Positions 7,683 through 32,586 of a DNA stretch of 32,831 bases are shown here, piece by piece. Source of the DNA: Alphaproteobacteria bacterium (GTDB lineage: Bacteria > Pseudomonadota > Alphaproteobacteria > GCA-2731375); assembly GCA_016869175.1 (NCBI GenBank), contig VGEV01000027.1:1-32831 (forward strand), given 5' to 3'. Position 1 is the first letter of the stretch. The number at the start of each line of letters is the position of its first letter. The notes below the pieces were generated by a model. It ran no database searches. It had not been told where the DNA came from and saw only the letters and a list, made by a program, of their open reading frames with translations. A program made the translations under genes and the position numbers.

Positions 7683-7696
7683 CGCCGATCGCCTTA

Positions 7697-7829: not shown

Positions 7830-9320
<1,491 letters not shown>

Positions 9321-10016: not shown

Positions 10017-10068
10017 CGGGCGGCACCGGGGCTCGACCAAGTCCCTGCTTGCTAGCGGTTCGCCGGTC

Positions 10069-10085: not shown

Positions 10086-10217
10086 ATCGACCGGCCGGCG
10101 CCGGCGCAGTAGACTGGCGGTTGCCCGGCGGGCCATGGGGGCGGAACGCCGTGCATGGAGAAGTCTGGCAGACGGCCGGAGCGGGCAGGGCCCGACCGGC
10201 GGACGGCAGGGTACGCG

Positions 10218-11336: not shown

Positions 11337-11339
11337 GCC

Positions 11340-14965: not shown

Positions 14966-15109
14966 CGCGGCCCAAGTCGTTTACGTTTCGTTCCGGACGC
15001 TAGTATGCCGTCCCGACCGGGGACCATGTCGGATCGGTTCGCGATTCCGTGTGTCGCGCGGTCGCGTTACGATAGGCTCGAATGCGTGGGCATCGACCGG
15101 AGGACCGTC

Positions 15110-15727
15110 ATGTCGCTAGCCTTGGCCGAAAGCCGGAGCATCGCCCAGCGGCGCGAGGCGGCGGTCGCCGCGACCCTCGCGAAGGTCCGGCGGATCGAAC
15201 GCGAGCGCGGCGTCAACCGGGACGCGCTGGAGGCGATCAAGCGGGAACTCATGGGCCTGACCGCCGACCGGTCGCTGTTTCCGCCGGAGCATTTTCCGCT
15301 GAACCCGGACGGCGGCAACGTAGCCTATCGGCTGTCCGAGGATGCCGATCACCGGTTCGCGCTCTACGTCTCCACCGGCAAGACCGGGCGCGAGACGCCG
15401 CCGCACGATCACACCACCTGGGCCGTCATCGTGGGGATCAAGGGCAAGGAGCACAACCGTTTCTATCGCCGCGCCGACGACCGCAGCCAGCCGGGCAAGG
15501 GTCGAGTGGTCGAGGTCGACCGCGCCACGGTCGAGCACGGCACCGGGGTGACCTTGATGCCCGAGGACATCCATTCCATCCACCTGGAAGGCGAACCTCC
15601 GACCCTGATGGTGCACATGTACGGCTTGGCGCTCGATCATCTGCACCGGCGCGTCGCCTACAACGCAGAGGACGGCACCTACCGGCACTTCCCGCCGAAC
15701 TCGGACATCCGCAAGCCCGTGGCATGA
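15110..15727 (+). CDS. Cupin thiol dioxygenase-like protein (cysteine dioxygenase family)
   Basis: Likely iron-dependent dioxygenase that oxidises a small thiol (cysteine, 3-mercaptopropionate or similar) to a sulfinate. The 205-residue protein starts at ATG 15110, with GGAGG seven bases upstream. The metal site is suggested by His99 and His101 in PPHDHTTWAVIVGIKGKEHN and by His155 or His158 in EDIHSIHLEG, matching the three-His layout of the CDO family. The long helical N-terminus (residues 1-55) is also family-like. Its stop overlaps the start of the rhodanese gene (ATGA), so the two are translationally coupled and probably act in the same sulfur pathway. The thiol substrate is inference. 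Confidence 0.8.
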   Translation: MSLALAESRSIAQRREAAVAATLAKVRRIERERGVNRDALEAIKRELMGLTADRSLFPPEHFPLNPDGGNVAYRLSEDADHRFALYVSTGKTGRETPPHDHTTWAVIVGIKGKEHNRFYRRADDRSQPGKGRVVEVDRATVEHGTGVTLMPEDIHSIHLEGEPPTLMVHMYGLALDHLHRRVAYNAEDGTYRHFPPNSDIRKPVA

Positions 15728-17328
15728 CCGCGCGGGTCGGCGCCGGCGCTGTCAAGGCGATGTTGCGGGATGGCGGCGAACTCGCTCTCGTCGACGTGCG
15801 CGAGGAAGGCGCCCATTCAGCCGGGCATCCGTTCTATGCGGCCTCGCTGCCGCTCAGCCGCCTGGAACTGCTGGCGGGTGACCGGCTGCCCAGGCGGTCG
15901 GTCCGCATCGTGCTGTTGGACGACGGCGAGGGGCTGGCCGAGCGCGCCGCGGCCAAGCTGGCGGAATTCGGCTATGGCGAGGTGGCCATCCTCGACGGCG
16001 GCCTGGCCGCGTGGCGGGCGGCCGGCTTCGTGCTGTTCAGCGGCGTGCATGTGCCCAGCAAGGCGTTCGGCGAGTATGTCGAGCATCATTACGCCACGCC
16101 TCATATGTCGGCCGAACGGCTCAAGGCGCGCATGGAAGCGGGCGAGCGCCTGCGCGTGCTGGACAGTCGGCCGCTGGACGAGTTCCGCGTCATGAGCATT
16201 CCCGGTGCGACCGACGCCCCCGGCGCGGAACTGGCCTACCGGGTGCACGACCTGGTGCCGGAGTCCGAGACCCTTGTGGTGGTCAACTGCGCAGGCCGCA
16301 CCCGCTCAATCATTGGTGCGCAGTCGTTGATCAATGCCGGCATTCCCAACCGCGTCGTCGCGCTGCAGAACGGCACCATGGGTTGGCATCTCGCCGGCTT
16401 CGGCCTGGAACACGGCCAGGAAAGCCGCTACGGCCCGATCAGCCAAGCCGGGCTCGACCGCGCCCGGCGGGCGGCGGCGGGCGTGGCCAAGCGGTTCGGC
16501 GTGCGGGCGATCGAACGTCGCGAGCTTGACCGCCTGCGCCAGGAGGCGGGGCAGCGCACGCTCTATCTGTTGGACGTGCGCTCGCCCGAGGAATACGAGG
16601 CGGGCCACTTGCCAGGCTCGCTATCGGCGCCCGGCGGCCAATTGGTGCAGGAAACCGAGAGCTGGGTGCCGGTGCTGGGCGCGCGTATCGTGCTGATCGA
16701 CGATACCGGCGTGCGCGCCACCATGACCGCGCATTGGCTGGTGCAGATGGGCTGGGAAGCTTACGTCCTGAAGGATGCGTTGGCGGGACAGGCGCTGGTC
16801 CAGGGAGCCTATCGCGCCGCCATCCCCGCAATCGGCCAGGTGGCCGAGGCCGGCCTGACGCCCCAGGACGTGCAGCCGTTGCTGGCCTCCGGTCGAGCTG
16901 TGGTGGTGGATTTCGGCTTCAGTCGCGACTATGCCAAGGGCCACATTCCGGGCGCGTGGTTCGCCATCCGCTCGCGCCTGCCAAGCAGCCTGCCGCGGCT
17001 GCCGGCGGCGGAAATGTTGGTCTTCACGTCTGCTGACGGGGTGCTGGCGCGACTGGCCGCGCCGGAGGCCTCGCAGTTGACCGCCACCCCCGTCCGCGTA
17101 TTGACGGGCGGCACGGCGGCGTGGCGGGCCGCGGGGTTGCCGCTGGCCAGCGGCCTCGAACACCTGGCCGACGGCCGCGACGACGTGTGGCTGCGACCTT
17201 ATGAGAATACCGGCGATGTCGAGCGGCACATGCGCGACTACCTGACCTGGGAACTGGACCTGGTGCGCGAGATCGAGCGCGACGGGGATCACCGATTCCG
17301 GCTGTTCCCGGTGCAGGGGGCCGGCTGA
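15724..17328 (+). CDS. Tetra-rhodanese sulfurtransferase-like protein
   Basis: The 534-residue protein is a tandem of four rhodanese-like domains: about 8-105, 128-232, 265-365 and 380-480, followed by a charged C-terminal tail. Each has the D-R or D-F start and the LxGGxxAW-type end in at least partial form. Only the second domain keeps the catalytic Cys (Cys189 in VNCAGRTRS). The others have Asp or Ser at the loop (LLDDGEG, LIDDTGV, FTSADG) and may be structural or substrate-binding. Rhodaneses move sulfane sulfur between donors and thiols. It starts in a 4-base overlap with the thiol dioxygenase-like gene, which supports a role in thiol or sulfite handling. No signal peptide is visible, so it is probably cytoplasmic. 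Confidence 0.85.
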   Translation: MTARVGAGAVKAMLRDGGELALVDVREEGAHSAGHPFYAASLPLSRLELLAGDRLPRRSVRIVLLDDGEGLAERAAAKLAEFGYGEVAILDGGLAAWRAAGFVLFSGVHVPSKAFGEYVEHHYATPHMSAERLKARMEAGERLRVLDSRPLDEFRVMSIPGATDAPGAELAYRVHDLVPESETLVVVNCAGRTRSIIGAQSLINAGIPNRVVALQNGTMGWHLAGFGLEHGQESRYGPISQAGLDRARRAAAGVAKRFGVRAIERRELDRLRQEAGQRTLYLLDVRSPEEYEAGHLPGSLSAPGGQLVQETESWVPVLGARIVLIDDTGVRATMTAHWLVQMGWEAYVLKDALAGQALVQGAYRAAIPAIGQVAEAGLTPQDVQPLLASGRAVVVDFGFSRDYAKGHIPGAWFAIRSRLPSSLPRLPAAEMLVFTSADGVLARLAAPEASQLTATPVRVLTGGTAAWRAAGLPLASGLEHLADGRDDVWLRPYENTGDVERHMRDYLTWELDLVREIERDGDHRFRLFPVQGAG

Positions 17329-19267: not shown

Positions 19268-19451
19268 GACCGCGCCCGGCGCATCACCCAGCCCGCGGTC
19301 GCCCGCTCCTGGAAACTTGTGGCGATTTACCGCAATAGTGCCGGGGCGGCCGCTCGGGCATAATGCGCGGCTTTTCCAGCAAGGGCATCGGCTGGGACGC
19401 GCGGGCTGATTGGGGAAACCCTCACAACTGCTTCCGGTGGGTGGCGTCGCC

Positions 19452-20051
19452 ATGGACGAAGAGCGCGTCCTGCGCCTGACCGAACGTCTGGGCCGAGTGA
19501 TCGTGCTGTTGGGCAAGATCGGCGGCTGGGCGGTCATTCCGATGATGCTGGCGGTCGTGCTGGATGTGATCGTCCGCAAGATCCCCTTTCTGACCTTTGT
19601 GGTGATCGACAATCCCTGGCTGCACCACTTGATCAGCTCCTCCAAGCTGCAGGAATGGCAGTGGCATTTCCATACCGTGGTGTTCACCATGGCGTTCGGC
19701 CTGACCTACATGGCCGATCGGCACGTGCGCATCGACGGCTGGCGCGAGGGCCGCAGCAACCGCGGCAAGGCGCTGATCGAAATTGTCGGCATCTGCGTCT
19801 TCCTGCTGCCCTATGCCCTGCTGATGATCTATCAGTCGGTGTGGTTCGTCGAACTCTCCTACGCCTCCAATGAAGTATCGGCGGCCACCACCGGCCTTAC
19901 CCATCGCTGGATCATCAAGTCCTTTCTGATCGTGTGCTACGCGATCCTGCTCGCCGCGGCATTGTGCATGCTGGCGCGGGCCATCATCTTCTTTCGTCAC
20001 CCACCTCAAGACCGGCGCTTGCCGCTCGGCATCGTGCATTTCAACGAGTAG
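19452..20051 (+). CDS. TRAP transporter small permease (DctQ family)
   Basis: The 199-residue membrane protein has four predicted TM helices (about 16-40, 73-88, 108-131 and 154-180). The segment EWQWHFHTVVFTMAFGLTYM followed by ADRHVRIDG resembles DctQ subunits of the mannitol/chloroaromatic TRAP branch. The ATG at 19452 is preferred. A TTG at 19410 would add 14 residues with no hydrophobic role. TRAP systems import organic acids using sodium or proton gradients and need a periplasmic binding protein (DctP), which is not present beside it. DctM follows 15 bases downstream. Confidence 0.88.
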   Translation: MDEERVLRLTERLGRVIVLLGKIGGWAVIPMMLAVVLDVIVRKIPFLTFVVIDNPWLHHLISSSKLQEWQWHFHTVVFTMAFGLTYMADRHVRIDGWREGRSNRGKALIEIVGICVFLLPYALLMIYQSVWFVELSYASNEVSAATTGLTHRWIIKSFLIVCYAILLAAALCMLARAIIFFRHPPQDRRLPLGIVHFNE

Positions 20052-20066
20052 GACGGGGCCACAAGC

Positions 20067-21437
20067 GTGATCGAGTATCTGCAGGACAACCTGGCCCTCT
20101 ACATGTTCTTCGCGCTCTGCGTGTTGATTTACAGCGGCTTCCCGCTTGGCTTCGTGCTGGGCGGCACGGCGCTGCTGTTCGGCATGATCGGCTGGGGCCT
20201 CGACGTGTTCGAGCTGGTGCAGTTCTTCAACCTGGTGCCGCGCATCTGGAGCGACGCGGCGGAGAATCTGGTGCTGACTTCCGTCCCGCTCTTTGTCTTC
20301 ATGGGATTGCTTCTGGAAGGCTCGGGCCTGGCGGAGGATCTGCTGCATTCGGTGCAGGTGCTGTTGCGCAAGGTGCCGGCGGGGCTGGCGCTGGCGGTCA
20401 ACGTGGTGGGCACCGTGCTGGGCGCTCCCATCGGCATTGTCAGCGCCAGCGTGGTCATGCTCTCGCTGGTCTCGCTGCCGATGATGATGGACCGCAAGTA
20501 CTCCGCCGCCTTCGCCACCGGCACCATCGCCGCCTCCGGCACGCTGGGCATTCTGATCCCGCCCTCGGTCATGCTGGTGGTGATGGCCGACATCATGTCT
20601 GTTTCGATCGGCCCGATCTTCTATGGCGCCTTCCTGCCCGGTTTCCTGCTCTCGGCCCTCTACTTCGCCTACATGATCCTGGTGGCGATGCTGAACCCCG
20701 CGATCGCGCCGCCGCTCGATGTCAGCGAGAGCAACATGTCCTGGTGCCAATTCGGCAAGGTCATGTGGGAAGGCTTCATGCCCTCCGCGGTGCTGCTGGC
20801 GGCGACGTTGGGGGTGATCTTCGCCGGCTGGGCGACGCCCACTGAGTCGGCGGGCTGCGGCGCCTTCGCGACCGTGCTGCTGGCCTGGCGCAAGGGCCGG
20901 CTCAGCCGGCAGTCCGTGGCCGACGTGGTCAATCGCACCGCCGTCACCATGGGGCTGATCTTCGTGCTCTATTGCGGCTCCAACGGCTTCTCCTACGTCT
21001 TTCGCTCGCTGGGTGGCGATCAGCTGGTCATTGCCTTCTTTCAGAGCCTGGACATCGGCCCGTGGGGCATCCTGGCCTTCCTGATGCTGGTGATCTTCCT
21101 GCTCGGCCTGCCGTTCGAATGGACCGAGATCTGCCTGATCATGCTGCCGATCATCACGCCGATCTTCATGATCCTGGAGTTCGGCGAGCATGTCGGACGC
21201 GCCGATGTGATCACCTGGTTCTTGGTGCTGATGGCGATCAACCTGCAGACCGCGTTTCTGACCCCGCCGTTCGGTTTCGCGCTCTTTTATGTCAAGGGCA
21301 CGGCGCCCGTGGCGATCAGCATGAACGACATCTTCCGGGGTTGCCTGCCGTTCATGATCCTGCAACTGACCGGGCTGGTCTTGTGTATCGCCTTCCCCGA
21401 AATCATCCTGTGGCTGCCGAAGCAGATGATCGGGTGA
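20067..21437 (+). CDS. TRAP transporter large permease (DctM family)
   Basis: The transport channel of the TRAP system. The 456-residue protein with about 12 TM helices starts at GTG 20067 (MIEYLQDNLALYMFFALCVL) after GGACGGGG. Conserved DctM features include IGIVSASVVMLSLVSLP, GTLGILIPPSVMLVVMADIM and TPTESAGCGAFATVLLA, with LTPPFGFALFYVKG near the C-terminus. Length and motifs are normal. It is in an operon with DctQ upstream and probably the small TM protein downstream. The substrate is not evident. Confidence 0.93.
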   Translation: MIEYLQDNLALYMFFALCVLIYSGFPLGFVLGGTALLFGMIGWGLDVFELVQFFNLVPRIWSDAAENLVLTSVPLFVFMGLLLEGSGLAEDLLHSVQVLLRKVPAGLALAVNVVGTVLGAPIGIVSASVVMLSLVSLPMMMDRKYSAAFATGTIAASGTLGILIPPSVMLVVMADIMSVSIGPIFYGAFLPGFLLSALYFAYMILVAMLNPAIAPPLDVSESNMSWCQFGKVMWEGFMPSAVLLAATLGVIFAGWATPTESAGCGAFATVLLAWRKGRLSRQSVADVVNRTAVTMGLIFVLYCGSNGFSYVFRSLGGDQLVIAFFQSLDIGPWGILAFLMLVIFLLGLPFEWTEICLIMLPIITPIFMILEFGEHVGRADVITWFLVLMAINLQTAFLTPPFGFALFYVKGTAPVAISMNDIFRGCLPFMILQLTGLVLCIAFPEIILWLPKQMIG

Positions 21438-21478: not shown

Positions 21479-21757
21479 ATGGATGGATTGGATCCGAACA
21501 CGGCCATCTTTCTTGGCCTGAACCTGGTGCAACTGATCTGCGTTCCGCTGTCCGTCGTCATGTTCGTCGTCGCCACCTATATCGGCGTCCGTCACAATGG
21601 CGACCGTCCGGAGTTCATCGCCGAACAGGAACGCGCCGCGCGCGAGGCCGCGGAAATCGCCCAGGCCAAGTTCGCCGAACTGGGCCTGCAAGAAGTGATC
21701 CCCAAGGAGCTGCTGCCGGAATTCGCCCGCGACAAGCCGTCGACTACAGCAAGCTGA
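21479..21757 (+). CDS. Small single-TM protein of the TRAP locus, unknown function
   Basis: The 92-residue protein has an N-terminal hydrophobic helix at about 8-36 (LGLNLVQLICVPLSVVMFVV). A charged helical segment follows at about 45-70, rich in Glu, Ala and Arg, then a Pro-containing tail. I do not recognise a family. It follows dctM by 41 bases on the same strand and ends 14 bases inside the 3' end of the convergent SMP-30 gene. An in-frame GTG one codon upstream is an alternative start. It could be an accessory TRAP subunit, but this rests on position only. Confidence 0.65.
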   Translation: MDGLDPNTAIFLGLNLVQLICVPLSVVMFVVATYIGVRHNGDRPEFIAEQERAAREAAEIAQAKFAELGLQEVIPKELLPEFARDKPSTTAS

Positions 21758-22631
21758 GGCCGGGCGTCCGCAGCCGCAGGCGATACAGCGACGTGGCGGC
21801 GCAGACATAGAGCGTGCGCAGGTCGTCGTCGCCGAAGCAGAAATTGGCGGTGTATTCCGGCATGCGAACAACCCCCAGGGCGATGCCGGCGGGATCGAAC
21901 ACATGGATGCCGCCCGGGCCGGCGCAATAGACATTGCCCTGCGCGTCGAGCTTCATGCCGTCCGGCGCGCCTGCGCCTTCGCCCTTGGTCTCGGCGAACA
22001 GACGGCCATCGGCGAGGCTGCCGTCGGCCTGCACGGCAAACGCCCGGATGTGCTGGCGCTCGGTGTCGTTGACGAACAGCCGGCGCTCGTCGGCCGCGAA
22101 ACAGAGTCCGTTCGGTTGACCGAAATCGTCGGCCAGCAGGCGTAGCGACCGGCCGTCCGGCGACAGCCGGTAGAGGCCGCGGTAGCTCAGCTCCGGCTCG
22201 CGCTTGACGCCGTAATAGTCCATTCGGCCGTAGCTCGGGTCGGTGAAGTAGATGGCACCGTCGCGCCGGACCGCCACATCGTTCGGGCTGTTGAGCTGCT
22301 TGCCCTCGTGGTGGCTCGCCAAGGTGACGATGCGGCCGTCGGCCTCGGTGCGGGTCAGGCGACTGCTGGCATGCTCGCACGTGATCAAGCGGCCCTGGCG
22401 GTCGTAGGCGTTGCCGTTGGCCATGTTGCTGGGCCGCCGGAAGGTCTCGATGCCGCCGCCGGGCCGCCAGCGCCGCATGTGATCGTCCGGCATGTCAGAG
22501 AAAATGAGTTGGCGCTCAACCGGGTGCCAGACCGGGCCCTCGGTGAACTTGCAGCCGGTGACGAGGCGCTCGAGCGCGGCGTCCCGATCGACAATGCTGG
22601 CGAAGCGCGGATCGCGCGTCTCGATCTCCAT
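21744..22631 (-). CDS. SMP-30/gluconolactonase/LRE family lactonase-like protein
   Basis: The 295-residue six-bladed beta-propeller hydrolase typically opens sugar or other lactones using a divalent metal. Candidate metal ligands match the family: Glu31 in FTEGPVWHP, Asn117 in NSPNDVAV, Asn174 in QPNGLCF and Asp224 in APDGMKLD. There is no signal peptide, so it is likely cytoplasmic. It is convergent with the TRAP operon, sharing 14 bases, and divergent from the Liv-type binding-protein gene. The neighbourhood suggests handling of lactones or sugar acids, but the substrate is not determined. Confidence 0.9.
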   Translation of the reverse strand: MEIETRDPRFASIVDRDAALERLVTGCKFTEGPVWHPVERQLIFSDMPDDHMRRWRPGGGIETFRRPSNMANGNAYDRQGRLITCEHASSRLTRTEADGRIVTLASHHEGKQLNSPNDVAVRRDGAIYFTDPSYGRMDYYGVKREPELSYRGLYRLSPDGRSLRLLADDFGQPNGLCFAADERRLFVNDTERQHIRAFAVQADGSLADGRLFAETKGEGAGAPDGMKLDAQGNVYCAGPGGIHVFDPAGIALGVVRMPEYTANFCFGDDDLRTLYVCAATSLYRLRLRTPGLSLL

Positions 22632-22723: not shown

Positions 22724-22779
22724 GCCCGAAACGGACGCGGGCTGGTGCCAGATGACCCGCTCCACAGGGGAGGATGGCG

Positions 22780-23946
22780 ATGAGAGCAGGCTGGTCGTTG
22801 GTCGCGGCGATGGCGCTGGCCGCGGGCGGCGCCCTGGCGCAGGGCGAACCGATCCGCATTGGCGCGATGTATCCTTTGACCGGCGGTGGCGCCATTTACG
22901 GCGTGCCCGCCATGGCGGGCCATCAGCTGGCGATCGAGGAGATCAACGCCAAGGGCGGCGTGCTGGGCCGCAAACTGGAATCCGTCGAACGCGACGACAA
23001 GATGAACCCCTCGGCCGCCTCGGCGACCATGAAGGAGCTCATCACCAAGGACAATGTGCATATCGTGCTGGGCGGCCTCAGCTCGGCCGTCGGGCTGGGC
23101 ATGTCGGAAGTCGCCAAGCAGGAGAAGATGGTCTACATCGCCACCGTACCGAAGACCATCCAGATGACCAGCGACAAGCTGCACAAGCATGTCTTCCGCA
23201 TCGCCTCGAACACGGATCTGGAGGGCGATACGCTGGCGGAACTGGTCAGCAAGTACAAGGTGAAGAACATCTGCCACCTGCAGCTAGACTATGCCTATGG
23301 CCACGACCTGGAGGCCGGCTTCCTGAAGGCACTGCCGAAATACGCGCCCGGCTCGAAGGTGGTGCTGACGCTGAAGCCGAAACTGGGCGCCACCGACTTC
23401 AACGCCTTCATCCCGCAGGTCATGTCGGCCGGCTGCGACGGCGTGGTGTCGGGCCTGTGGGGACCGCATTTCGTGTCCTGGGTGCAGCAGGCCAAGCCGC
23501 TTGGCTTCTTCGACAAGATCAAGTGGATTTCCGGCGGCGAGATCGCCAGCCACGAGGTGGCGGTGTCGTTGAAGGACGAATATCCCGACAACGTCATCTC
23601 CAACACCTACGAGCTCTGGTATCACTCGCAGGATCCCATGCATAAGACCTTCCAGGCGGCGCTGGCCAAGAAGCTGGGCACGCAGGAAACGCCGCAATGG
23701 TCGATGCTGGGCTATAACGGCGTGCTGTTCGCCGCTGCCGCGATCGAGAAGGCGAAGTCGCTCGACCCCGACAAGATCGCCGAGGCACTGGAAGGCCTGA
23801 CCGTGCACACCCCCGTTGGTCCGTTGACGATCGATGCGAAGACGCACCAGTCGAACACCGGCCAGTTCTGGGGGCCGATGGTGAAGCAGCCGGGCAAGGA
23901 CTACCGCGTGATGAGCCCGGTGGAATTCATCCAGCCCAAGCTCTAG
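22780..23946 (+). CDS. Branched-chain-amino-acid-type ABC transporter substrate-binding protein
   Basis: Periplasmic binding protein (LivJ/LivK fold, peripla_BP_6) that delivers ligand to the LivHM permease. It is 388 residues from ATG 22780. GGGGAGG sits six bases before this ATG and directly against the ATG at 22774, so the second start is preferred. The signal peptide MRAGWSLVAAMALAAGGALA ends at AQ, and the mature protein starts EPIRIGAMYPLTG. Family motifs include NAKGGVLGRKLE and the DDKMNPSAASATMKELI helix near the ligand site. The ligand could be an organic acid or an aromatic compound rather than an amino acid, since acyl-CoA enzymes follow in the same operon. Confidence 0.93.
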   Translation: MRAGWSLVAAMALAAGGALAQGEPIRIGAMYPLTGGGAIYGVPAMAGHQLAIEEINAKGGVLGRKLESVERDDKMNPSAASATMKELITKDNVHIVLGGLSSAVGLGMSEVAKQEKMVYIATVPKTIQMTSDKLHKHVFRIASNTDLEGDTLAELVSKYKVKNICHLQLDYAYGHDLEAGFLKALPKYAPGSKVVLTLKPKLGATDFNAFIPQVMSAGCDGVVSGLWGPHFVSWVQQAKPLGFFDKIKWISGGEIASHEVAVSLKDEYPDNVISNTYELWYHSQDPMHKTFQAALAKKLGTQETPQWSMLGYNGVLFAAAAIEKAKSLDPDKIAEALEGLTVHTPVGPLTIDAKTHQSNTGQFWGPMVKQPGKDYRVMSPVEFIQPKL

Positions 23947-23953
23947 CCCCCGT

Positions 23954-23980
23954 GCCCCGCGCCGTTGGCCGGCGCGGGGC
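23954..23980 (+). terminator. GC-rich hairpin after the binding-protein gene
   Basis: GCCCCGCGCCG (23954-23964) and CGGCGCGGGGC (23970-23980) form a perfect 11-bp stem with a 5-base loop. It lies seven bases past the binding-protein stop and before livH. No long T run follows. Such hairpins after the binding-protein gene usually cause partial termination or protect the upstream message, so the binding protein is made in excess over the permeases. Confidence 0.6.
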
Positions 23981-24013
23981 TTCCATTTCCTGCAGGACGG
24001 GTTCGTTACGGCG

Positions 24014-24892
24014 ATGACGCTGACCGTATTCGCCTTGAATGCCTTATATGGCCTCGCGTTGGCGATGAACATGTTCGTCATCGCCTCCGGCCTCAACCTG
24101 ATCTTCGGCGTGCTGCGCGTGATCAATTTCGCGCATGGCGTATTCTACATGTTCGGCGCCTATTTGATCTACACGGTGACCAAGCTCTGGGGCTTCAGCT
24201 TTCCGGTGGGCGTGCTCGCCGCCGGCTTGGGGCTCGCCATCATCGCCTTCTTCATCGAACGGTTGCTGCTGCGCCGGCTGTATGGGCAGGAGCACCTGAT
24301 GCAACTGTTGTTCACCTTCGCCATCGTCCTGCTGATGAGCGACGCCGCGAAGATGCTGTGGGGCACCGACCAGTACACGGTCGGCTACCCGCCTGCGTTT
24401 ACCGGCGCCGTCAATCTGGGTTTCGTGGTGTTCCCGCAATATCTGCTGTTCCTCTGCGTGGTCGGCCCGATCATTGCCATCGCGATGTGGCTGCTGGTCG
24501 ATCGCACTCGCTGGGGCCGCGTGGTGCGGGCCGCGACGCAGGACCGCGAGATGCTGGCGGCGCTCGGCGTCAATGTGCAGATGGTCTATTCGGCGGTCTT
24601 CGTGCTGGGCTCGGCGCTGGCCGGCATCGGCGGCGCGCTGGCAGCGCCGCGCCTGGCGCTGACGCCGGGCATGGATGCGACCATCATCAACGAGTGCTTC
24701 ATCATTGTCATCATCGGCGGTCTCGGCCATTTGTGGGGCAGTTTCCTGGGCGCCCTGGCCTTCGGCTTCGTCGTGCAGTTCGGTACTGTCTGGGTGCCCA
24801 ACTGGCAGGACGTGCTGCCCTACCTGCTGATGCTAACGGTGCTGCTGATCCGACCGTGGGGCCTGCTCGGCCGGCCCGAGGCGGGGCGCTAG
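24014..24892 (+). CDS. livH: ABC transporter permease, LivH type
   Basis: The 292-residue inner-membrane permease of the branched-chain-amino-acid-type (HAAT) family has about eight hydrophobic segments. Family features include LIFGVLRVINFAHGVFYMFG near the N-terminus, VVRAATQDREMLAALGVNVQ as the cytoplasmic coupling loop for the ATPase, and IIGGLGHLWGSFLGALAFGF. The stop lies one base before the livM start, so the genes are tightly linked. It forms the pore together with LivM. Confidence 0.95.
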   Translation: MTLTVFALNALYGLALAMNMFVIASGLNLIFGVLRVINFAHGVFYMFGAYLIYTVTKLWGFSFPVGVLAAGLGLAIIAFFIERLLLRRLYGQEHLMQLLFTFAIVLLMSDAAKMLWGTDQYTVGYPPAFTGAVNLGFVVFPQYLLFLCVVGPIIAIAMWLLVDRTRWGRVVRAATQDREMLAALGVNVQMVYSAVFVLGSALAGIGGALAAPRLALTPGMDATIINECFIIVIIGGLGHLWGSFLGALAFGFVVQFGTVWVPNWQDVLPYLLMLTVLLIRPWGLLGRPEAGR

Positions 24893-24893
24893 G

Positions 24894-25823
24894 ATGAGCG
24901 GCCGCGTGTCGCTGGCGGTCGGGATCGGCATCCTGACACTGCTGGCGCTGCTGCCGCTGGCCGGCAGCCGCTATGCGATCGACCTGGCGACCCAGGTACT
25001 GATCTATTGCCTGTTCGCGCTCAGTCTCAACGTCCTGATTGGCTATGCCGGCAACGTTTCCTTCGGGCACGCGGCCTATTTCGCCATTGGCGGCTATGCC
25101 TGTGCCATCCTGCTGACGACCTACAACTGGACCTTGGCGCTGGCCTTGCCGGCGGCGGTCGTGTTGTCGGGCGTGATGGCGGCGGTGATCGGCTATTTCT
25201 GCGTGCGCCTGACGCAGATCTATTTCGCCATGCTGACGCTCGCCTTCGCCATGCTGGTCTGGGGCGTGGCCTTCAAGTGGCGCGAGGTGACGGGCGGCGA
25301 CGACGGCCTGACGGGGATCAAGGTGCCGACGCTGCTGGGCAATGCCACCAGCTACTACTACTTCACCCTTGTCATGGTCGCGTCTGGCGTGGCGCTGCTC
25401 TGGTTGATCTGCCATTCCGCCTTTGGCCTGATGTTGGTGGCGGTGCGCGAGAACGCGGTGCGCGCCGGTTTCGTGGGCGTGGAGACGAGGCGGCTGCGCT
25501 GGGTGGCCTTCATCGTGGCCGGCACCTTCGCCGGGCTGGCCGGCGCGCTGTTCGGCATGTACCACCGGGGCATGTACATCGAGAACGCCTTCTGGACCGA
25601 GTCGGCGCAAGTGCTGATCATGGTCTTGCTGGGCGGCATGTATTCGTTCTTCGGGCCGCTGATCGGCGCCACCGTGCTGTACCTCCTGCAGGTCGCGACC
25701 AACCAGTTCACCCAATATTGGCCGACGGTGCTGGGATTGATCTTGCTGGTCATCTTGATGTTCCTGCCCGACGGGCTGGCCGGCTTGGCGGCACGGTTCA
25801 GGCGGGCCGGCGGACGGAACTGA
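24894..25823 (+). CDS. livM: ABC transporter permease, LivM type
   Basis: The 309-residue partner permease of LivH. Typical motifs are LNVLIGYAGNVSFGHAAYFA, the coupling loop AVRENAVRAGFVGVETRRLR, the GTFAGLAGALFGMYHRGM segment, and the C-terminal GGMYSFFGPLIGATVLYLL. It has about nine TM segments. The ATG at 24894 directly follows the livH stop with one intervening base, and livG begins four bases after its stop. Confidence 0.95.
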   Translation: MSGRVSLAVGIGILTLLALLPLAGSRYAIDLATQVLIYCLFALSLNVLIGYAGNVSFGHAAYFAIGGYACAILLTTYNWTLALALPAAVVLSGVMAAVIGYFCVRLTQIYFAMLTLAFAMLVWGVAFKWREVTGGDDGLTGIKVPTLLGNATSYYYFTLVMVASGVALLWLICHSAFGLMLVAVRENAVRAGFVGVETRRLRWVAFIVAGTFAGLAGALFGMYHRGMYIENAFWTESAQVLIMVLLGGMYSFFGPLIGATVLYLLQVATNQFTQYWPTVLGLILLVILMFLPDGLAGLAARFRRAGGRN

Positions 25824-25827
25824 GGCG

Positions 25828-26577
25828 ATGCTGAAGGTTGCCGGCGTCACCAAGACCTTCGAGGGCTTCGTCGCCATCCGCGACGTGCATTTCAGCCTGG
25901 AAGCGAACAGCCGTCACGCCATCATCGGCCCCAACGGGGCCGGCAAGACCACGTTTTTCAACCTGCTGACCGGCCACCTGACGCCGGACTCCGGCAGCGT
26001 CGAGTTCGAAGGCCAGTCGATCGCGGGTCGGCCGCCCCATCGCATCGTTAGGCTGGGCATCGCCCGCTCGTTCCAGCGCATCAACATCTACCCGCGCCTC
26101 AGTGTCTTTGAGAACGTGCAAGTAGCGCTGATCGCGCGCGAGCGCCGGCACTTCAGTCTGTTCCGTCTGGGTCGGCCGCTATACCGCGAAGAGACGCAAG
26201 AGTTGCTGGAGTTGGTGAGCCTGGCGGACGAGGCCGCCGGCAATGCCGGCGAGCTGGCCTATGGCAAGCAGAAGCAGCTCGAATTGGCGATCGCGCTGGC
26301 CGCGCGGCCGCGTCTGCTGCTGCTGGACGAACCGACCGCCGGCATGTCGCCGCAGGAGACCGCCGAGGCCATGCGGCTGATCGACCAGATCACCCAGGCG
26401 CGCGGCCTGACCCTGCTGTTCACCGAACACGACATGGGCGTGGTGTTCGGCATCGCCAATCGCATCACGGTGCTGCATCACGGCGAGATCATCGCCACAG
26501 GCGCGCCCGACGAGGTGCGCAACAACGCCGAAGTGCGGCGCGTCTATCTGGGGACCGACGGCCATGGCGCTGCTTGA
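25828..26577 (+). CDS. livG: ABC transporter ATP-binding protein, LivG type
   Basis: The 249-residue ATPase energises LivHM. Walker A is GPNGAGKTT (residues 34-42). The signature region reads ELAYGKQKQLELAIAL, a LivG variant of LSGGQ. Walker B is LLLLDEPTAGMSP, and the H-loop lies in LLFTEHDMGVV. The LivG-specific insert is present, shown by ARSFQRINIYPRLSVFENV. The 3' end overlaps livF by 14 bases, indicating translational coupling. Confidence 0.95.
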   Translation: MLKVAGVTKTFEGFVAIRDVHFSLEANSRHAIIGPNGAGKTTFFNLLTGHLTPDSGSVEFEGQSIAGRPPHRIVRLGIARSFQRINIYPRLSVFENVQVALIARERRHFSLFRLGRPLYREETQELLELVSLADEAAGNAGELAYGKQKQLELAIALAARPRLLLLDEPTAGMSPQETAEAMRLIDQITQARGLTLLFTEHDMGVVFGIANRITVLHHGEIIATGAPDEVRNNAEVRRVYLGTDGHGAA

Positions 26578-27268
26578 GGTGGCCGCGATCCATACCGCCT
26601 ATGGCCTGAGCCAGGTGCTGTTCGGGGTCAGTTTTGAGGTCAACGCGGGCGAAGTGGTGGCGCTGGTCGGGCGCAACGGCGTCGGCAAGTCCACCACCAT
26701 GCGCTCGATCATGGGCCTGACGCCGCCGGCGCGCGGGCATGTGCGGTTCGACGGCCAGGACGTGACCGGCTGGCCGGCCTATCGGGTGGCGCGCGCGGGA
26801 ATCGGCTTCGTGCCGGAGGACCGGCGCATCTTCCCCGAGCTCAGCGTGTGGGAGAATCTCGATATCGGACGGCGCGGAAAGCGGAGCGGCGGCGGCTGGA
26901 GCGAGCGCCAAGTGTTCGAGCTGTTCCCCGACCTCGAGGCCATCCGGTCCCGGCGTGGCGGGGTACTGTCGGGCGGGCAGCAACAAATGCTGACCATCGC
27001 CCGCACGCTGATGGGCAACCCGCGCCTGCTGCTGCTGGACGAGCCCTCGGAGGGCCTGGCGCCGCTGGTGGTGGAGAACCTGCGCCAGCAGGTGGCTAAG
27101 TTGAAGGCAAGCGGCCTGTCGATCGTGCTGGCGGAACAGAACCTGTCGTTCGTGCTGTCGCTCAGCGACCGCCTGCACATCATGGAAAAGGGCGAGATCA
27201 AGTTCAGCGGCACGCCGGCGGAACTGAGCGGCAACCGCAAGGTGCTCGACCGTTATCTGACGGTCTAG
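26564..27268 (+). CDS. livF: ABC transporter ATP-binding protein, LivF type
   Basis: The 234-residue second ATPase of the importer has Walker A VGRNGVGKST (36-45), signature LSGGQQQMLTIARTL, Walker B LLLLDEPSEGLAP and switch region IVLAEQNLSFVL. The segment GIGFVPEDRRIFPELSVWEN is diagnostic for LivF. It completes the five-gene importer, and the enoyl-CoA hydratase-like gene starts six bases after its stop, tying transport to CoA metabolism. Confidence 0.95.
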   Translation: MALLEVAAIHTAYGLSQVLFGVSFEVNAGEVVALVGRNGVGKSTTMRSIMGLTPPARGHVRFDGQDVTGWPAYRVARAGIGFVPEDRRIFPELSVWENLDIGRRGKRSGGGWSERQVFELFPDLEAIRSRRGGVLSGGQQQMLTIARTLMGNPRLLLLDEPSEGLAPLVVENLRQQVAKLKASGLSIVLAEQNLSFVLSLSDRLHIMEKGEIKFSGTPAELSGNRKVLDRYLTV

Positions 27269-27274
27269 CCACGG

Positions 27275-28063
27275 ATGGCGGCGTCGGCCCATGTCCGGCT
27301 GGAGCGTAATGGCGCGATCGCCACGCTCACCCTCGACCGGCCCGAACAGCTCAACCCGCTCGATTGGCAGACGGTGCGCGACTTGCTGGGCCTCGTGGCG
27401 GAACTGGAACGGGAGGCCGCGCTGGCGGCCGTCATTCTGACCGGCAGGGGCAAGGCGTTCTCGGCCGGCGGCGATCTGGAAAGCTATCTGGAGCTCTACC
27501 GCAATCCCGCCCGGTTCCGGGGCTTCCTGGCCGATTTCGCCAGGCTCAACGCCGCCATCGAAGCCAGCGCCAAGATCTACCTGGCGGCGGTGAACGGCTT
27601 CTGCGTCGCTGGCGGACTGGAACTGATGCTGGCTTGCGACCTGGCGCTGGCCGCCGAGGAGGCGCGGATCGGCGATGGCCATCTCAACTTCGCGCAGCTG
27701 CCGGGGGCCGGTGGCTCGCAGCGGCTGCCGCGTGCCATCGGCGTGTTGCGGGCCAAGGAGTTGATCCTGACCGGCGAGCTGCTGGACGGCCGGGCCGCGG
27801 CGGCGATCGGCCTGGTCAACCGCGCGGTCCCTGGCGAGCGGCTGATGGCGGAAGCGCTGGCCGTGGCCGGGCGCCTGGCGGAACGCAGCCGGGTGGCGCT
27901 GGGCGGTGCCAAATACCTCGTCAATGCAGGCCTGCGCACCGATCTTGCCGCCGGCCTTGAGATCGAGCGTGGCTTCGTCCACAACTACGCAACCGCCGAA
28001 CCGGATGCGACCGAGGGCCTCGTCGCCTTCAAGCAGAAGCGCAAGCCGCGTTTCGGTCTCTGA
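27275..28063 (+). CDS. Enoyl-CoA hydratase/isomerase family protein with substituted catalytic residue
   Basis: The 262-residue crotonase-fold protein has oxyanion-hole residues in FSAGGDL (around Gly66) and AGGLEL (Gly114), and CoA-contact segments LNPLDW and PGAGGSQRLPRAIG. Of the two catalytic glutamates of classical hydratases, the first is kept (Glu116 in GGLELMLACD). The second position aligns with His136 in GDGHLNFAQLPG instead of the usual PE. It may therefore be an isomerase, hydrolase, decarboxylase or an altered hydratase rather than a standard beta-oxidation enzyme. It is co-transcribed with livF and the thiolase-like gene. Confidence 0.88.
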   Translation: MAASAHVRLERNGAIATLTLDRPEQLNPLDWQTVRDLLGLVAELEREAALAAVILTGRGKAFSAGGDLESYLELYRNPARFRGFLADFARLNAAIEASAKIYLAAVNGFCVAGGLELMLACDLALAAEEARIGDGHLNFAQLPGAGGSQRLPRAIGVLRAKELILTGELLDGRAAAAIGLVNRAVPGERLMAEALAVAGRLAERSRVALGGAKYLVNAGLRTDLAAGLEIERGFVHNYATAEPDATEGLVAFKQKRKPRFGL

Positions 28064-28084
28064 ACCTGGGACTGGGGTGGGCGA

Positions 28085-29242
28085 ATGTGGAGCTTGCGCG
28101 ACAAGTACGCCATCGCCGGCATCGGCCATACCAATTATTCCAGCCGCTCCGGTCGCACGGTGCTGGATCTGGCGAGCGAGGCCTGCGGCAAGGCACTTGC
28201 CGACGCCGGCTTGATGGCGGCCGAGATCGACGGTTTCGTCAGCTACACCTTCAACGATTCCGTGCCCGCCATGGCGGTCGCGACGCAGCTCGGCTGCAAT
28301 GCCACGCGCTATGTCGTCGATCTGCAGGCAGGCGGCAATGCCGCCAACCTGGTGATCCAGACCGCGGCCATGGCGATCGAGGCGGGGCTGGCGAACAGCG
28401 TGCTGGTCTACCGCGCCATGAACGGCCGCTCGGGTTTCCGGCTGGGCGGCGGGCGGGAATTCCGCGCCCAAGGCATCACCCAGTTCACGGCACCCTTCGG
28501 CTGGATCACCTATCCGCAGGCGATGGCCATGTGGTGCCGGCGGCACATGGTGAAATACGGCACCACCAGCGAGCATCTCGGCCATGTCGCGGTCACCTGC
28601 CGGGCCAACGCGGGCCTCAATCCGCGCGCGATGAAGCGCCAGCCGATCACGCTTGACGACTATTTCGCCAGTCGGCCGATCGTGGAGCCGTTCCGCCTGC
28701 TCGACATCTGCCTGGAGACCGATGGTGCCTGTGCCGTGCTGGTGACTTCGGCCGAGCGCGCGCGCGACCTGAAGCAGCGGCCGGTGCGCATCCTGGGCGC
28801 CGCCTATGGCGGTGGGCCGCAACAGGGTGACGATTTGTTCGATGCGCTGCGCTGGCCGGAGCACGCCACCAACTACGCCGCCTATATCGCCGACGAGCTG
28901 TGGCGCAGCGCCGGCGTCGGGCCGCAAGACATCGATGTCGCCGAGATCTACGACTGCTTCACCTACAGCGTGCTGGCTCAGCTTGAGGGCTTCGGTTTCT
29001 GCAAGCCGGGCGAGGGCGGGCCGTTCGTCGCATCGGGCGCCATTGCCCGGGATGGCAGCCTGCCGGTCAATACCCATGGCGGCCTGCTGTCGGAGGGCTA
29101 TATCCACGGCCTCAACCACGTGATCGAGGCGGTGCAGCAATTGCGCGGCGAGGCGGGGCCCAGGCAGATCCAGGGCGCCGAACTGGCGCTCACCACCGCG
29201 GGCGCCATGTCCTGCGGCAGCGCACTGGTACTGCGCAACTGA
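28085..29242 (+). CDS. Thiolase-like/lipid-transfer (Ltp/SCP2-thiolase type) protein
   Basis: The 385-residue thiolase-fold protein contains family segments EACGKALADAGLMAAEIDG, AEIYDCFTYSVLAQLEGFGF and NTHGGLLSEGYIHGLNH (HGG 331-333), with a MSCGSALVL end (Cys377). The N-terminal nucleophile loop reads VVDLQAGGNAANL and has no Cys where true thiolases have one, so it probably does not do ordinary Claisen or thiolytic chemistry. Ltp-type members paired with DUF35 proteins act as retro-aldolases in steroid side-chain breakdown or as acyl-transfer complexes. The DUF35 gene follows by two bases, which supports a complex. The substrate is unknown. Confidence 0.88.
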   Translation: MWSLRDKYAIAGIGHTNYSSRSGRTVLDLASEACGKALADAGLMAAEIDGFVSYTFNDSVPAMAVATQLGCNATRYVVDLQAGGNAANLVIQTAAMAIEAGLANSVLVYRAMNGRSGFRLGGGREFRAQGITQFTAPFGWITYPQAMAMWCRRHMVKYGTTSEHLGHVAVTCRANAGLNPRAMKRQPITLDDYFASRPIVEPFRLLDICLETDGACAVLVTSAERARDLKQRPVRILGAAYGGGPQQGDDLFDALRWPEHATNYAAYIADELWRSAGVGPQDIDVAEIYDCFTYSVLAQLEGFGFCKPGEGGPFVASGAIARDGSLPVNTHGGLLSEGYIHGLNHVIEAVQQLRGEAGPRQIQGAELALTTAGAMSCGSALVLRN

Positions 29243-29244
29243 GC

Positions 29245-29658
29245 ATGGAGAACACCTATCTCAAGCCGCTGCCGGTGCCGGATCCCGACAGCGAGCCGTT
29301 CTGGCAGGGCTGCAAGCGGCACCGGCTGCTGCTGCGGCGCTGTACGGATTGCGGCCGGTTGCGCTATCCGCCGGGGCCGGTCTGCGCGCATTGCGGCTCG
29401 CGCGCCGGGGAATGGCGCGAGGCCTCGGGCCGCGGCCGGGTCTACAGTTGGATCGTGGTGCGCCACCCGGTGCCGCAAGAGGTCTTCGCCGCCGAGGTGC
29501 CCTATGTCGTGGCGCTGATCGAGTTGGAGGAAGGCGTGCGCCTGGCCAGCAACCTGGTCGGCTGCCCGCCCGAGGCGGTGGCCGCCGACATGCCCGTCGC
29601 CGTGACCTTCGAGGACGTCAGCGAGACGATCAGCCTGCCGAAGTTCCGGCCGGCCTGA
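29245..29658 (+). CDS. DUF35 Zn-ribbon/OB-fold protein (acyl-CoA-associated)
   Basis: The 137-residue protein has an N-terminal rubredoxin-like zinc ribbon with Cys33, Cys36, Cys47 and Cys50 (RRCTDCGRLRYPPGPVCAHC) and a C-terminal OB fold (about 60-137, GRGRVYSWIVVRHPVPQEVF onward). Members form complexes with thiolase-like partners, where the OB fold holds the CoA moiety. It is the last gene of the Liv-ECH-thiolase operon, two bases after the thiolase-like gene. The convergent CoA ligase gene ends only three bases away. Confidence 0.92.
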   Translation: MENTYLKPLPVPDPDSEPFWQGCKRHRLLLRRCTDCGRLRYPPGPVCAHCGSRAGEWREASGRGRVYSWIVVRHPVPQEVFAAEVPYVVALIELEEGVRLASNLVGCPPEAVAADMPVAVTFEDVSETISLPKFRPA

Positions 29659-29661
29659 GCC

Positions 29662-31053
29662 TCAGCCCTTGCCCGCGTAGCCCTGCTGGCGGCGGTCGGT
29701 CCAGCGCCTGGTCTTGTAGGTGAAGGTGGGCAGGCTGTCGCGCGGCACCTCGACCACGCGCATGCTGACATTGGTGCGGGCCTTGATCGTCTGGGCGATG
29801 CGGGCCAGCAAGCCCAGGCGGGCCTCGCCCTCGGGCGCCTGCGGATGCAACGCCAGACGCACCAGCACGTCGGTGCGGCCGTTCTCGTCCACTTCGACGT
29901 TGCCGGCATATTCGGCCACCTCGACATGGGCGAACACCGCCGCGTCCACCGCCTGCGGCCAGACATTGTTGCCGCGGATCTTCAGCATGTCGTCGTAGCG
30001 GCCGATATGGCCGGCTTCGATGCCGTCGAACGGCAGGCCGGTGCGGCTCTCCTCGTGCGGTAGGTAGCGCACCCGGTCGCCGGTGCGGAAGCGCAAGATG
30101 GGCGAGGCCTCGATATCGAGATTGGTCAGCACCAGCTCGCCTTCCTCGCCGGGCTTGACCGGCTGCAGGGTCGCGGGATCGAGGATTTCGTGCAGGTTGA
30201 GCCACTCGAGCCCATGCAACATGCCCCGGCCGTTCGATCGCCGGTCCGGTGCGCCCGCCGCCTGGCCGAAGGCATAGCCGACCGATTGCGTGCTGCCATA
30301 GGCCTCGGTCAACGGACAGCTCCAGAATTCCGCCATCCGTTCGGCCCATTCCGGCGGGTAACCCTCGGCGGCGAAGATCAGGCAACGCAGTTGCGGTAGC
30401 CTGCGGCGCGGCTCGAAGCCCAGCCGCCGGCAGACCTCGGTCAGCGTATTGACGTAGTTGGTCGAGGCGTAGAGCGCATTGAGCCCGCCCAGGCGGTCGA
30501 ACAAGCCGACGATCTGCTCGGTGTTGAACACGCCGCCCAGATGAAAGACGGTGACGCCGCCGAAGCGAAACCCTTCCGGCGGGCCCCAGCCTCCGGCGGT
30601 GACGCCACCGGACGGCGTGGCGTTGACCACCAGGTCGCCCGGCCGCATGCCGGCCAGTTCGAAGGCCAGCCAGTGCCGATAGCCGACCATCACCAGATCG
30701 TTGGCGCTGCGGCCGTAGACTTCCTGGCCCTGACCGGAGGTGCCGCTGGTCATGGCGATCAGCGCCACCCGCTCGCGCGCGATGCCAAGGCGGCGGCCAA
30801 ACGGCGGCTCCGCGGTCTGGTCGGCCACGAACTCCGCCTTGTCGGAGAACGGGATGTGGCGGAAGTCGGCGAGCACGCGGATGCGCTCTGGGACGATGCG
30901 GGCCTGCCGCAGCTTGTCGCGATAATGCGGATTAGCGGCCGCGAGATAGGCCAGTTGGCGTTGCAGCTTCTGCCATTGCATCGCCAGCACCTGCTGGCGG
31001 GAGAGCGCCCGGTAGAACGACAACGATAACGGTCGGCTGGGCTCGAAGGGCAT
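29662..31053 (-). CDS. Phenylacetate-CoA ligase-like (PaaK-type) AMP-dependent acyl-CoA ligase
   Basis: The 463-residue adenylate-forming enzyme should activate a carboxylic acid to its CoA thioester through an acyl-AMP. Motifs are the P-loop MTSGTSGQGQEVYG (101-114), EAYGSTQ (250-256), FRTGDRVRYL (around 322-331) and the hinge GRYDDMLKIRGNNVWPQAVD (351-370). PaaK-type C-terminal features TYKTRRWTDRRQQGY are also present. The acid is not necessarily phenylacetate. It lies 24 bases after the MFS gene on the same strand and faces the Liv operon. It may supply the CoA ester used by the ECH/thiolase/DUF35 proteins, which is inference from context. Confidence 0.9.
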   Translation of the reverse strand: MPFEPSRPLSLSFYRALSRQQVLAMQWQKLQRQLAYLAAANPHYRDKLRQARIVPERIRVLADFRHIPFSDKAEFVADQTAEPPFGRRLGIARERVALIAMTSGTSGQGQEVYGRSANDLVMVGYRHWLAFELAGMRPGDLVVNATPSGGVTAGGWGPPEGFRFGGVTVFHLGGVFNTEQIVGLFDRLGGLNALYASTNYVNTLTEVCRRLGFEPRRRLPQLRCLIFAAEGYPPEWAERMAEFWSCPLTEAYGSTQSVGYAFGQAAGAPDRRSNGRGMLHGLEWLNLHEILDPATLQPVKPGEEGELVLTNLDIEASPILRFRTGDRVRYLPHEESRTGLPFDGIEAGHIGRYDDMLKIRGNNVWPQAVDAAVFAHVEVAEYAGNVEVDENGRTDVLVRLALHPQAPEGEARLGLLARIAQTIKARTNVSMRVVEVPRDSLPTFTYKTRRWTDRRQQGYAGKG

Positions 31054-31077: not shown

Positions 31078-32586
31078 TCAGCGGCGCCGGCGCACCAGCA
31101 AGAGCAACGGCAAGGTGGCCAGCGCCGCGAAGCAGTACAGGTTGAAGGCGTTGAGATAGCCGATCATCGCCGCTTGACGGAAGACCTCGCCGTCGATGCG
31201 GGCCAGCCCGTCGGCGCTCTCCATGTTCCAGGCGGCGCCGGCCGCCGAGGCGGCGACGCCGTCGGCGAACGGATTCACGCTCTCCGCCAGCCCGGCATAG
31301 TTCCAGGCGGTCGAGCGGACATAGAGCGTCACCGACAGCGAGATGAAGACGCTGGAGCCAAAATTGCGGATCAGGTGAAACACGGCGCTGGCTTCGGTCA
31401 GTTGACGCGGCTGCAGCGAGGAAAAGGCGATCATCGACATCGGCACGTACATGATGCCGATGCCGAAGCCCTGCAGCATGTTGGTCCACACCACGTCGAA
31501 CAGGGTCAGGTTGATATCGAGACTGGCCATGCCCCAACCGGCCACCGCCGAGGCGACGAGGCCGATGGTCAGCGTCAGGCGCGGGCTGTAATTGGTCAGC
31601 GGCACGACCAGGAAGAAGCTGATCCAGTTGCCAATGCCGCGCGCGGCGATCAGCGTGCCGATGATGGATTCGGGAAAGCCGCGCAGTTCCTGGAGCAGCG
31701 GCGGGAACAGCACCATCGGCGTGAACACCAGCATGCCGAAGACGAGCGCGAAGGTGACCCCCAGTGCGAAGTCGCGGTTGAGGAACAGTTTCAGATCGAG
31801 GAAGGGCGTCCGGCTGCTGAGGCTGTGCACCAGGAAGACATGGAAGGCGATCAGCGCCACGCCGGACGCCAGGACGATTTCGAACGATTCGAACCAGTCG
31901 AGCCGCTGGCCGCGATCCAGCATGTACTGCGCGGCGGCGATCGCCACGGACAGCGACATGAAGCCGGTCCAGTCGAGCGGTGTCCGGTCCAGCCGACCGC
32001 GGTCGTCGAAGGTCACCAGCACGCCCAGCACCGACAACAGGGCGAGCGGCGCCGTCATCAGAAAGGCGCCGCGCCAGCCATAGGCCTCGGCCATCAAGCC
32101 GCCCAGCAGCGGCCCCAGCACGGGCCCAAACACCCCGCCGATGCCCCACAGCATGGTGACCAGCGCATGCTGGCGCGGCGGGAAGCTGGCCAACAGGATC
32201 GCCTGACCCATCGGCAGGATCGGCGCGCCGAACGCCCCTTGCAGCACGCGGAACACGACCAGCACCGCCAGCGAGGGCGCCAGACCGCAGGCCACCGAGC
32301 TGGCGCCGAAACCCAGCAGCGAGATGGCCATCAGCCGGCGCCAGCCGAGCCGCGCCGACAGCCAGCCGGTGATCGGCGTCGCCACGGCGGTGGCGACGAT
32401 GTTGAAGGTGACGACCAGGGCGATCTGGTCTTGCGTCGCCGACAGCGTGCCGCGCATCTGCGGCAGCAGCACGTTGGCCAGCGTCGTGGTCATGCCGAAC
32501 AGGATCGTCGCCAGTTGCGCGGTCAGCAGGACCATGAACTGCTGCAGGGACATGCCGATGCGGGTGGGGGTGGCGGTGCGGCTCAT
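31078..32586 (-). CDS. DHA2-family MFS drug/solute exporter (EmrB-like)
   Basis: The 502-residue proton antiporter has about 14 TM helices, the usual DHA2 length. Motifs are FNIVATAVATPITGWLSARL, ending in the motif A segment GWLSARLGWRR, and FRVLQGAFGAPILPMGQAIL as motif C/B-like segments of the first half. A hydrophilic C-terminus (LLLLVRRRR) ends the protein. It starts at ATG 32586. No EmrA-like adaptor is adjacent. The PaaK-like gene follows by 24 bases, so it is probably in the same transcript. An IS5-family end lies 72 bases upstream and may have changed its promoter. Confidence 0.92.
   Translation of the reverse strand: MSRTATPTRIGMSLQQFMVLLTAQLATILFGMTTTLANVLLPQMRGTLSATQDQIALVVTFNIVATAVATPITGWLSARLGWRRLMAISLLGFGASSVACGLAPSLAVLVVFRVLQGAFGAPILPMGQAILLASFPPRQHALVTMLWGIGGVFGPVLGPLLGGLMAEAYGWRGAFLMTAPLALLSVLGVLVTFDDRGRLDRTPLDWTGFMSLSVAIAAAQYMLDRGQRLDWFESFEIVLASGVALIAFHVFLVHSLSSRTPFLDLKLFLNRDFALGVTFALVFGMLVFTPMVLFPPLLQELRGFPESIIGTLIAARGIGNWISFFLVVPLTNYSPRLTLTIGLVASAVAGWGMASLDINLTLFDVVWTNMLQGFGIGIMYVPMSMIAFSSLQPRQLTEASAVFHLIRNFGSSVFISLSVTLYVRSTAWNYAGLAESVNPFADGVAASAAGAAWNMESADGLARIDGEVFRQAAMIGYLNAFNLYCFAALATLPLLLLVRRRR

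Follow-up and report, generated by a model that had tools for sequence, protein, structure and literature searches.

The stretch of DNA analysed here (the window, 32,831 nucleotides) is a complete contig (C27) of a 3.97-Mb alphaproteobacterial genome assembled into 285 contigs. Eight plus-strand genes occupy positions 22774-29658, encoding a Liv-type set (one binding protein, two permeases and two ATPases), a crotonase, a thiolase-like protein (TLP) and a DUF35 protein; the intergenic gaps in this run are 1-67 nt and there is a single overlap of 14 nt. The genes of interest are listed below.

22774..23946, plus strand: Liv-type periplasmic binding protein (Peripla_BP_6)
24014..24892, plus strand: Liv-type permease 1 (LivH-like)
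24894..25823, plus strand: Liv-type permease 2 (LivM-like)
25828..26577, plus strand: Liv-type ATPase 1 (LivG-like)
26564..27268, plus strand: Liv-type ATPase 2 (LivF-like)
27275..28063, plus strand: crotonase-family protein (ECH_1); retains the first catalytic Glu, with His (GDGH) at the position of the second
28085..29242, plus strand: TLP, proposed retro-aldolase, 385 aa; G84, R197, Y289-D-C291-F, Y339, H341
29245..29658, plus strand: stand-alone DUF35 protein, 137 aa; zf-ChsH2 zinc ribbon and OB_ChsH2_C; C-x2-C-x10-C-x2-C
29662..31053, minus strand: PaaK-like CoA ligase, convergent with the DUF35 gene
31078-32586, minus strand: EmrB-type MFS exporter

The TLP and DUF35 reading frames are both intact. 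As the initial annotation had stated, a DUF35 gene with four zinc-ligand cysteines (CTDC-x10-CAHC) follows the TLP gene closely, two bases separating the TLP stop from the DUF35 ATG (29242/29245); the start given for the binding-protein gene, 22780, has to be corrected to 22774. Pfam matches were Thiolase_C_1 for the TLP, and zf-ChsH2 and OB_ChsH2_C for its neighbor. Just upstream of the Liv set lie TRAP transporter DctQ-DctM genes (19410-21437) and, on the minus strand, an SMP-30/gluconolactonase-like gene (21744-22631). The window also encodes a 748-aa protein with four rhodanese stretches (15082-17328).

Proteins such as this TLP carry annotations of acetyl-CoA acetyltransferase, lipid-transfer protein or hypothetical protein. 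The loop at the nucleophile position reads VVDLQAGGNAANL and places Gly84 where the true thiolase 7yvy has Cys. Earlier, the protein had been described as lacking Cys, which is correct for the nucleophile position but not for the active site as a whole, as evidenced by Cys291 within a YDCF motif. Residues were compared in an alignment of 138 rows, made up of the window, four PDB chains and the fetched loci, with the redundant copy of the window (L001) left out. Tyr289 was present in all 122 rows devoid of Cys84, and the 16 rows with Cys84 had either His (12) or Gln (4) at this position. Within the clade to which the window protein belongs (see below), Gly84, Tyr289, Asp290, Cys291, Phe292, Tyr339 and His341 are each conserved in 24/24 members. 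Gly84, Tyr289, Cys291 and Tyr339 are present together in 59 of the 138 rows, a combination hence common to other clades and not unique to this one.

Comparison with the bile-acid C5 side-chain aldolase Sal (9myr) was made by anchoring the numbering on YDCY = 302, after which all 13 of the checked residues named in the Sal paper matched by letter. Gly84, Arg197, Tyr289 and Cys291 of the TLP correspond to Gly89, Arg216 (CoA), Tyr302 and Cys304 of Sal, whereas Tyr339, Leu334 and Tyr143 take the places of Gln352, Gln347 and Gln161. When aligned with Ltp2, the steroid C3 side-chain aldolase, Tyr289 and Tyr339 fall on Tyr294 and Tyr344, and Cys291 occupies the position of His296. The Sal paper (PMC12329534) assigns Tyr302 as base and Cys304 as acid in Sal, with Gln347 and Gln352 proposed to tune Cys304 and Gln161 as an oxyanion residue; for Ltp2, it describes Tyr294 as base, Tyr344 as acid and His296 as an oxyanion-hole residue. 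The window TLP thus holds a residue at both acid positions, Tyr339 at that of Ltp2 and Cys291 at that of Sal, making both candidate acids. As read from the aligned residues, its predicted active site is a composite of those of the two known steroid aldolases, Sal with Tyr and Cys and Ltp2 with two Tyr. Since the three Gln residues of Sal are replaced by Leu334, Tyr339 and Tyr143, neither known mechanism would transfer intact.

A structural model of the TLP, built with 49 sequences (pLDDT 92.5), pointed to the same relatives. Its best match was Ltp2 (6ok1_C; Z 57.0, 1.9 Å over 374 residues), followed by Sal (9myr_A; Z 51.1, 2.1 Å over 373 residues) and 4u4e (Z 50.0), as compared with a Z of about 36 for canonical thiolases. 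Foldseek likewise returned Ltp2 at the top, and placed 4u4e ahead of Sal. Among solved structures searched by sequence, the TLP was closest to 6ok1_A (Ltp2, 264 bits) and the DUF35 protein to 6ok1_B (DUF35 of ChsH2, 117 bits). Residues 113-131 were modeled as a short loop between a strand and a helix, of which 121-125 were poorly predicted. The equivalent loop is described as 18 residues long and partly disordered in Ltp2, whose pocket is open, and as 30 residues in Sal (PMC12329534); the modeled TLP loop would be closer to the former than to the latter.

In the 138-row tree, the window protein fell in a clade of 24 rows (SH-aLRT 98) nested in a set of 57 (96), while Ltp2 (6ok1), its nearest relatives and IpfD formed a separate clade of seven rows (100). 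A more careful tree of 56 chosen rows, in which 14 rows of the window clade were kept, supported this clade at 100/93; the branches leading to Sal and to the thiolases are long. Constraining the window clade to join the seven Ltp2/IpfD rows lowered the log-likelihood by 100.9 and was rejected (p-AU 1.25e-10), a p-value weakened in that the groups had been defined once the first tree was available. Membership of Ltp2 is rejected on this result and on the architecture of the partner, a stand-alone DUF35 protein. The clustering that would have refuted the initial annotation, with a thiolase group whose substrate is known, did not appear, the TLP lying outside the Ltp2/IpfD clade. The TLP is therefore neither Ltp2 nor Sal; it represents a clade of its own, known from 24 loci and distributed patchily in the Alpha- and Betaproteobacteria. 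Seven of the 15 genomes of the window's family (its own included) carry a copy at ≥72% identity, and none of the 46 other genomes of the class does, the best match there being 45%. Elsewhere, the clade is found in Stella, Bosea (once on a plasmid), Pseudolabrys, Oceanibacterium and Burkholderiales, and in Novosphingobium and Sphingopyxis, plasmids included. A literature search covering titles and abstract openings found no report of it.

Gene neighborhoods were compared across the 24 clade loci, including the window and excluding L056 and L057, which are copies of L043 and L045. A DUF35 gene lies directly downstream of the TLP gene on the same strand in 24/24, and this adjacency in orthologous loci indicates that the pairing is more than chance. 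A crotonase gene lies directly upstream in 22/24, the two loci without an adjacent one being L037 and L061. The constant unit is hence crotonase, TLP and stand-alone DUF35; the CoA ligase, short-chain dehydrogenases (SDRs), kinase and Liv transporters are variable. Neighbor genes were counted at identity thresholds of 35–60%, depending on the gene, and several loci end at a contig edge, so that the following are lower bounds: PaaK-like ligase, at least 14/24; FadR-type regulator, at least 9/24; SDR1, at least 8/24; and SDR2, at least 11/24. The ligase gene, convergent with the DUF35 gene in the window, is co-directional and right after it in other clade loci. A kinase gene, which we take to be LvaA/ACAD10-like, stands beside the module in at least 8/24 loci and has homologs elsewhere in the genome of the window (C15) and none in the window itself. 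Papers on ACAD10/11 suggest handling of 4-hydroxyacyl-CoA, which offers a lead for the clade kinase. Ten unlabeled neighbors searched with Pfam, and three with NCBIfam, gave general oxidoreductases and transporters and indicated no pathway. Divergence was correlated among the TLP, DUF35 protein, crotonase and ligase (r 0.74–0.79), a sign of co-inheritance and not of contact. DUF35 follows the TLP in 33/34 cases in the sister set, for which the fetched loci showed no crotonase directly upstream. Of six Ltp2-clade loci, four have a DUF35 domain directly upstream, and none was found adjoining the TLP in the other two.

The crotonase of the module is itself unusual. In 22/22 of the clade's adjacent crotonases, the first catalytic Glu is retained and the second position is His; a further 35 crotonases from the fetched loci included 13 with Glu/Glu and two with Glu/His, one of the latter being the displaced clade copy in L037. 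Five solved relatives that were aligned (5zai and EchA8 chains) have Glu at the second position, except 4fjw, which has Gln. In view of this substitution, labeling the protein an enoyl-CoA hydratase would be risky, and its role in hydration is uncertain. Hydration by the crotonase would follow by analogy from the Shy-Sal and ChsH1-ChsH2-Ltp2 precedents (PMC11321319).

The four-cysteine zinc motif of the window DUF35 protein is matched by 22/24 clade DUF35 proteins. Those of Novosphingobium EMRT-2 (L039, 15162-15581) and Sphingopyxis BIN8 (L064) gave no match to it, and in the former the cysteines are lost; the TLPs of both loci nonetheless keep the full active site. Gene adjacency and the crystal structures of homologous pairs suggest that the TLP and DUF35 proteins associate physically.

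The closest known systems differ from the module in how these parts are arranged. Ltp2 is 42% identical to the TLP and, like it, has Gly for Cys, both catalytic Tyr residues and a DUF35 partner with a four-Cys zinc ribbon. However, its motif is YDHF instead of YDCF, its DUF35 domain is the C-terminal part of the MaoC hydratase subunit ChsH2 (6ok1) instead of a separate downstream gene product, and it adjoins a MaoC hydratase where the window TLP adjoins a crotonase. Sal, which is 31% identical, shares the Gly, Tyr, Cys and Arg correspondences given above and has its DUF35-bearing gene downstream of the aldolase gene (PMC11321319). It differs in having Gln352 and Gln347 where the TLP has Tyr339 and Leu334, and its partner Shy has a Cys3His1 zinc site and is fused to MaoC, whereas the window DUF35 protein has a C4 site and no MaoC part. 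The novelty of this locus lies in a separate clade that combines a composite active site with a free DUF35 protein and an unusual crotonase; the retro-aldolase type itself was already known.

From the sequence, motif conservation, gene order and predicted fold, we infer that the TLP is probably a CoA-thioester retro-aldolase of the Ltp2/Sal kind, which would form a complex with the stand-alone DUF35 protein and act in the pathway outlined below, as a clade separate from both. The sequence and fold features of a TLP-DUF35 retro-aldolase in the wide sense are present, namely (i) a predicted thiolase fold, (ii) Tyr in place of the His of HDxF, (iii) no nucleophile and (iv) a DUF35 gene. The initial annotation had left the choice between aldolase and acyltransferase open. 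Given Gly84, the occurrence of Tyr289 in every row without Cys84, and Ltp2 and Sal as the best folds, a retro-aldolase appears much likelier, so that the aldolase part of that proposal has good support and the acyltransferase part does not. In the proposed sequence of steps, a CoA ligase (PaaK-like in the window) would activate a carboxylic acid, the crotonase-family partner would make or handle a beta-hydroxyacyl-CoA, and the TLP would cleave the C-alpha/C-beta bond, the products being acetyl- or propionyl-CoA plus a ketone or an aldehyde. Tyr289 would be the base taking the proton of the beta-hydroxyl, and the enolate would be protonated by Tyr339 (as by Tyr344 of Ltp2) or Cys291 (as by Cys304 of Sal). 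The best reading of the module is thus that crotonase, aldolase and DUF35 protein may together shorten a CoA-activated acid. For Ltp2, the reason given for aldol cleavage is that a tertiary beta-alcohol is not oxidizable (PMC11321319), and ibuprofen degradation provides a case of this chemistry with a small aryl acid (PMC9195938). The locus is most economically explained by a retro-aldolase with DUF35 whose CoA-ester substrate has a beta-carbon not open to simple oxidation. More tentatively, the module might represent a third kind of metabolon, in which a Glu/His crotonase stands in for the MaoC hydratase beside a composite Sal/Ltp2 TLP and a free DUF35 protein, and which is spread as a widely traded cassette removing side chains from non-steroid natural acids imported by Liv systems; we regard this as possible, with the balance somewhat against it.

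Among other readings, one likens the TLP to IpfDE (R. wittichii pIBU218, L143), with a ring-bearing, dearomatized or oxygenated acyl-CoA as substrate, its hydroxyl supplied by an oxygenase, and the crotonase as an isomerase or hydrolase. The consistent loss of the second Glu in the crotonase would fit, as would the window ligase, PaaK-like ligases being a group known for aryl acids. IpfDE also has a stand-alone DUF35 gene and both catalytic Tyr residues; it acts on a small acid rather than a steroid, in ibuprofen degraders, where the substrate is a dioxygenase product and the retro-aldolase step is reported to release propionyl-CoA (PMC9195938). Yet IpfD has YDHF and lies within the Ltp2 clade, its DUF35 gene is upstream, the neighboring crotonase is without the E/H pair, and no ring-hydroxylating dioxygenase was among the window proteins scanned, which makes this reading unlikely.

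Slightly less likely still is the view that the TLP is by function a steroid side-chain aldolase (Ltp2 or Sal) in a steroid degrader, although its closest solved relatives are precisely these two. In L039 (Novosphingobium; span 4838-13202) and L064 (Sphingopyxis), the module lies within a cluster that holds a CoA-transferase pair, a nitronate-monooxygenase-like gene and enoyl-CoA hydratase, acyl-CoA dehydrogenase and ligase genes. Genes resembling a ring-opening pathway surround these copies but not the window copy. The cluster, with its IpdA/IpdB-like CoA-transferase pair, resembles the steroid C/D-ring (HIP) set, a likeness that no family model scored, and would favor a steroid substrate. 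Against it stand the rejected grouping with Ltp2/IpfD, the stand-alone, downstream DUF35 partner not contained in a MaoC hydratase, and the search of the window's own genome for a single steroid marker, the L039 CoA-transferase subunit, which gave only a 32% identical match, compared with 87% in the Sphingopyxis genome; we therefore judge this view very unlikely. Sphingopyxis BIN8 has a second match, 57% identical, to the first CoA-transferase subunit elsewhere in its genome. That the TLP is an acyltransferase or thiolase of the PhlABC (5m3k), BbsAB (benzoylsuccinyl-CoA thiolase, 7pxp) or archaeal ACAT type was rejected on its residues and is highly improbable, for despite the same fold and DUF35 pairing (Z 45–47, 24–26% identity to BbsAB and PhlABC) and a low score with the NCBIfam model of BbsB (115 bits, where the cut-off is 750), all 24/24 clade members lack the nucleophile Cys and have Tyr at both positions of the catalytic His.

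For the preferred retro-aldolase, the transporter and ligase were examined as clues to the substrate. Liv systems are common beside catabolic genes. A Liv-type binding protein occurs in 10/24 clade loci and is of two non-orthologous kinds, one in two loci (the window and G004) and the other, the Bosea kind, in eight; the two are 28% identical (window system 22774-27268 versus L037 system 3944-8438). L068 has Liv-type ATPases, and the remaining 13/24 loci have no Liv genes within the stretch examined. The presence of two unrelated systems beside the module makes the Liv link suggestive, and it is plausible that the window transporter imports the module's substrate. The best solved relative of the binding protein was 3i45 (143 bits), followed by many Liv-type proteins at ≤88 bits, and no ligand was singled out. 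The ligase was equally uninformative, scoring 144 of 646 bits with the PaaK model and alike with PaaK and 2-hydroxyisobutyryl-CoA synthetase structures (123 to 111 bits).

If active, the module would point to a new catabolic route in bacteria of rhizosphere, freshwater and marine habitats, and would add a candidate to the aldolases available for C-C bond chemistry. As the clade combines Tyr, Cys and a second Tyr, separate mutation of each would test which supplies the proton. Another Tyr/Cys protein, TbSLP, is proposed as a possible aldolase in the 2025 Sal paper (PMC12329534). The genome of the window holds six further thiolase-like and five further DUF35 matches (on C103, C3, C81, C10, C51 and C14), and the thiolase-like protein on C103 carries YDAF, a motif without Cys.
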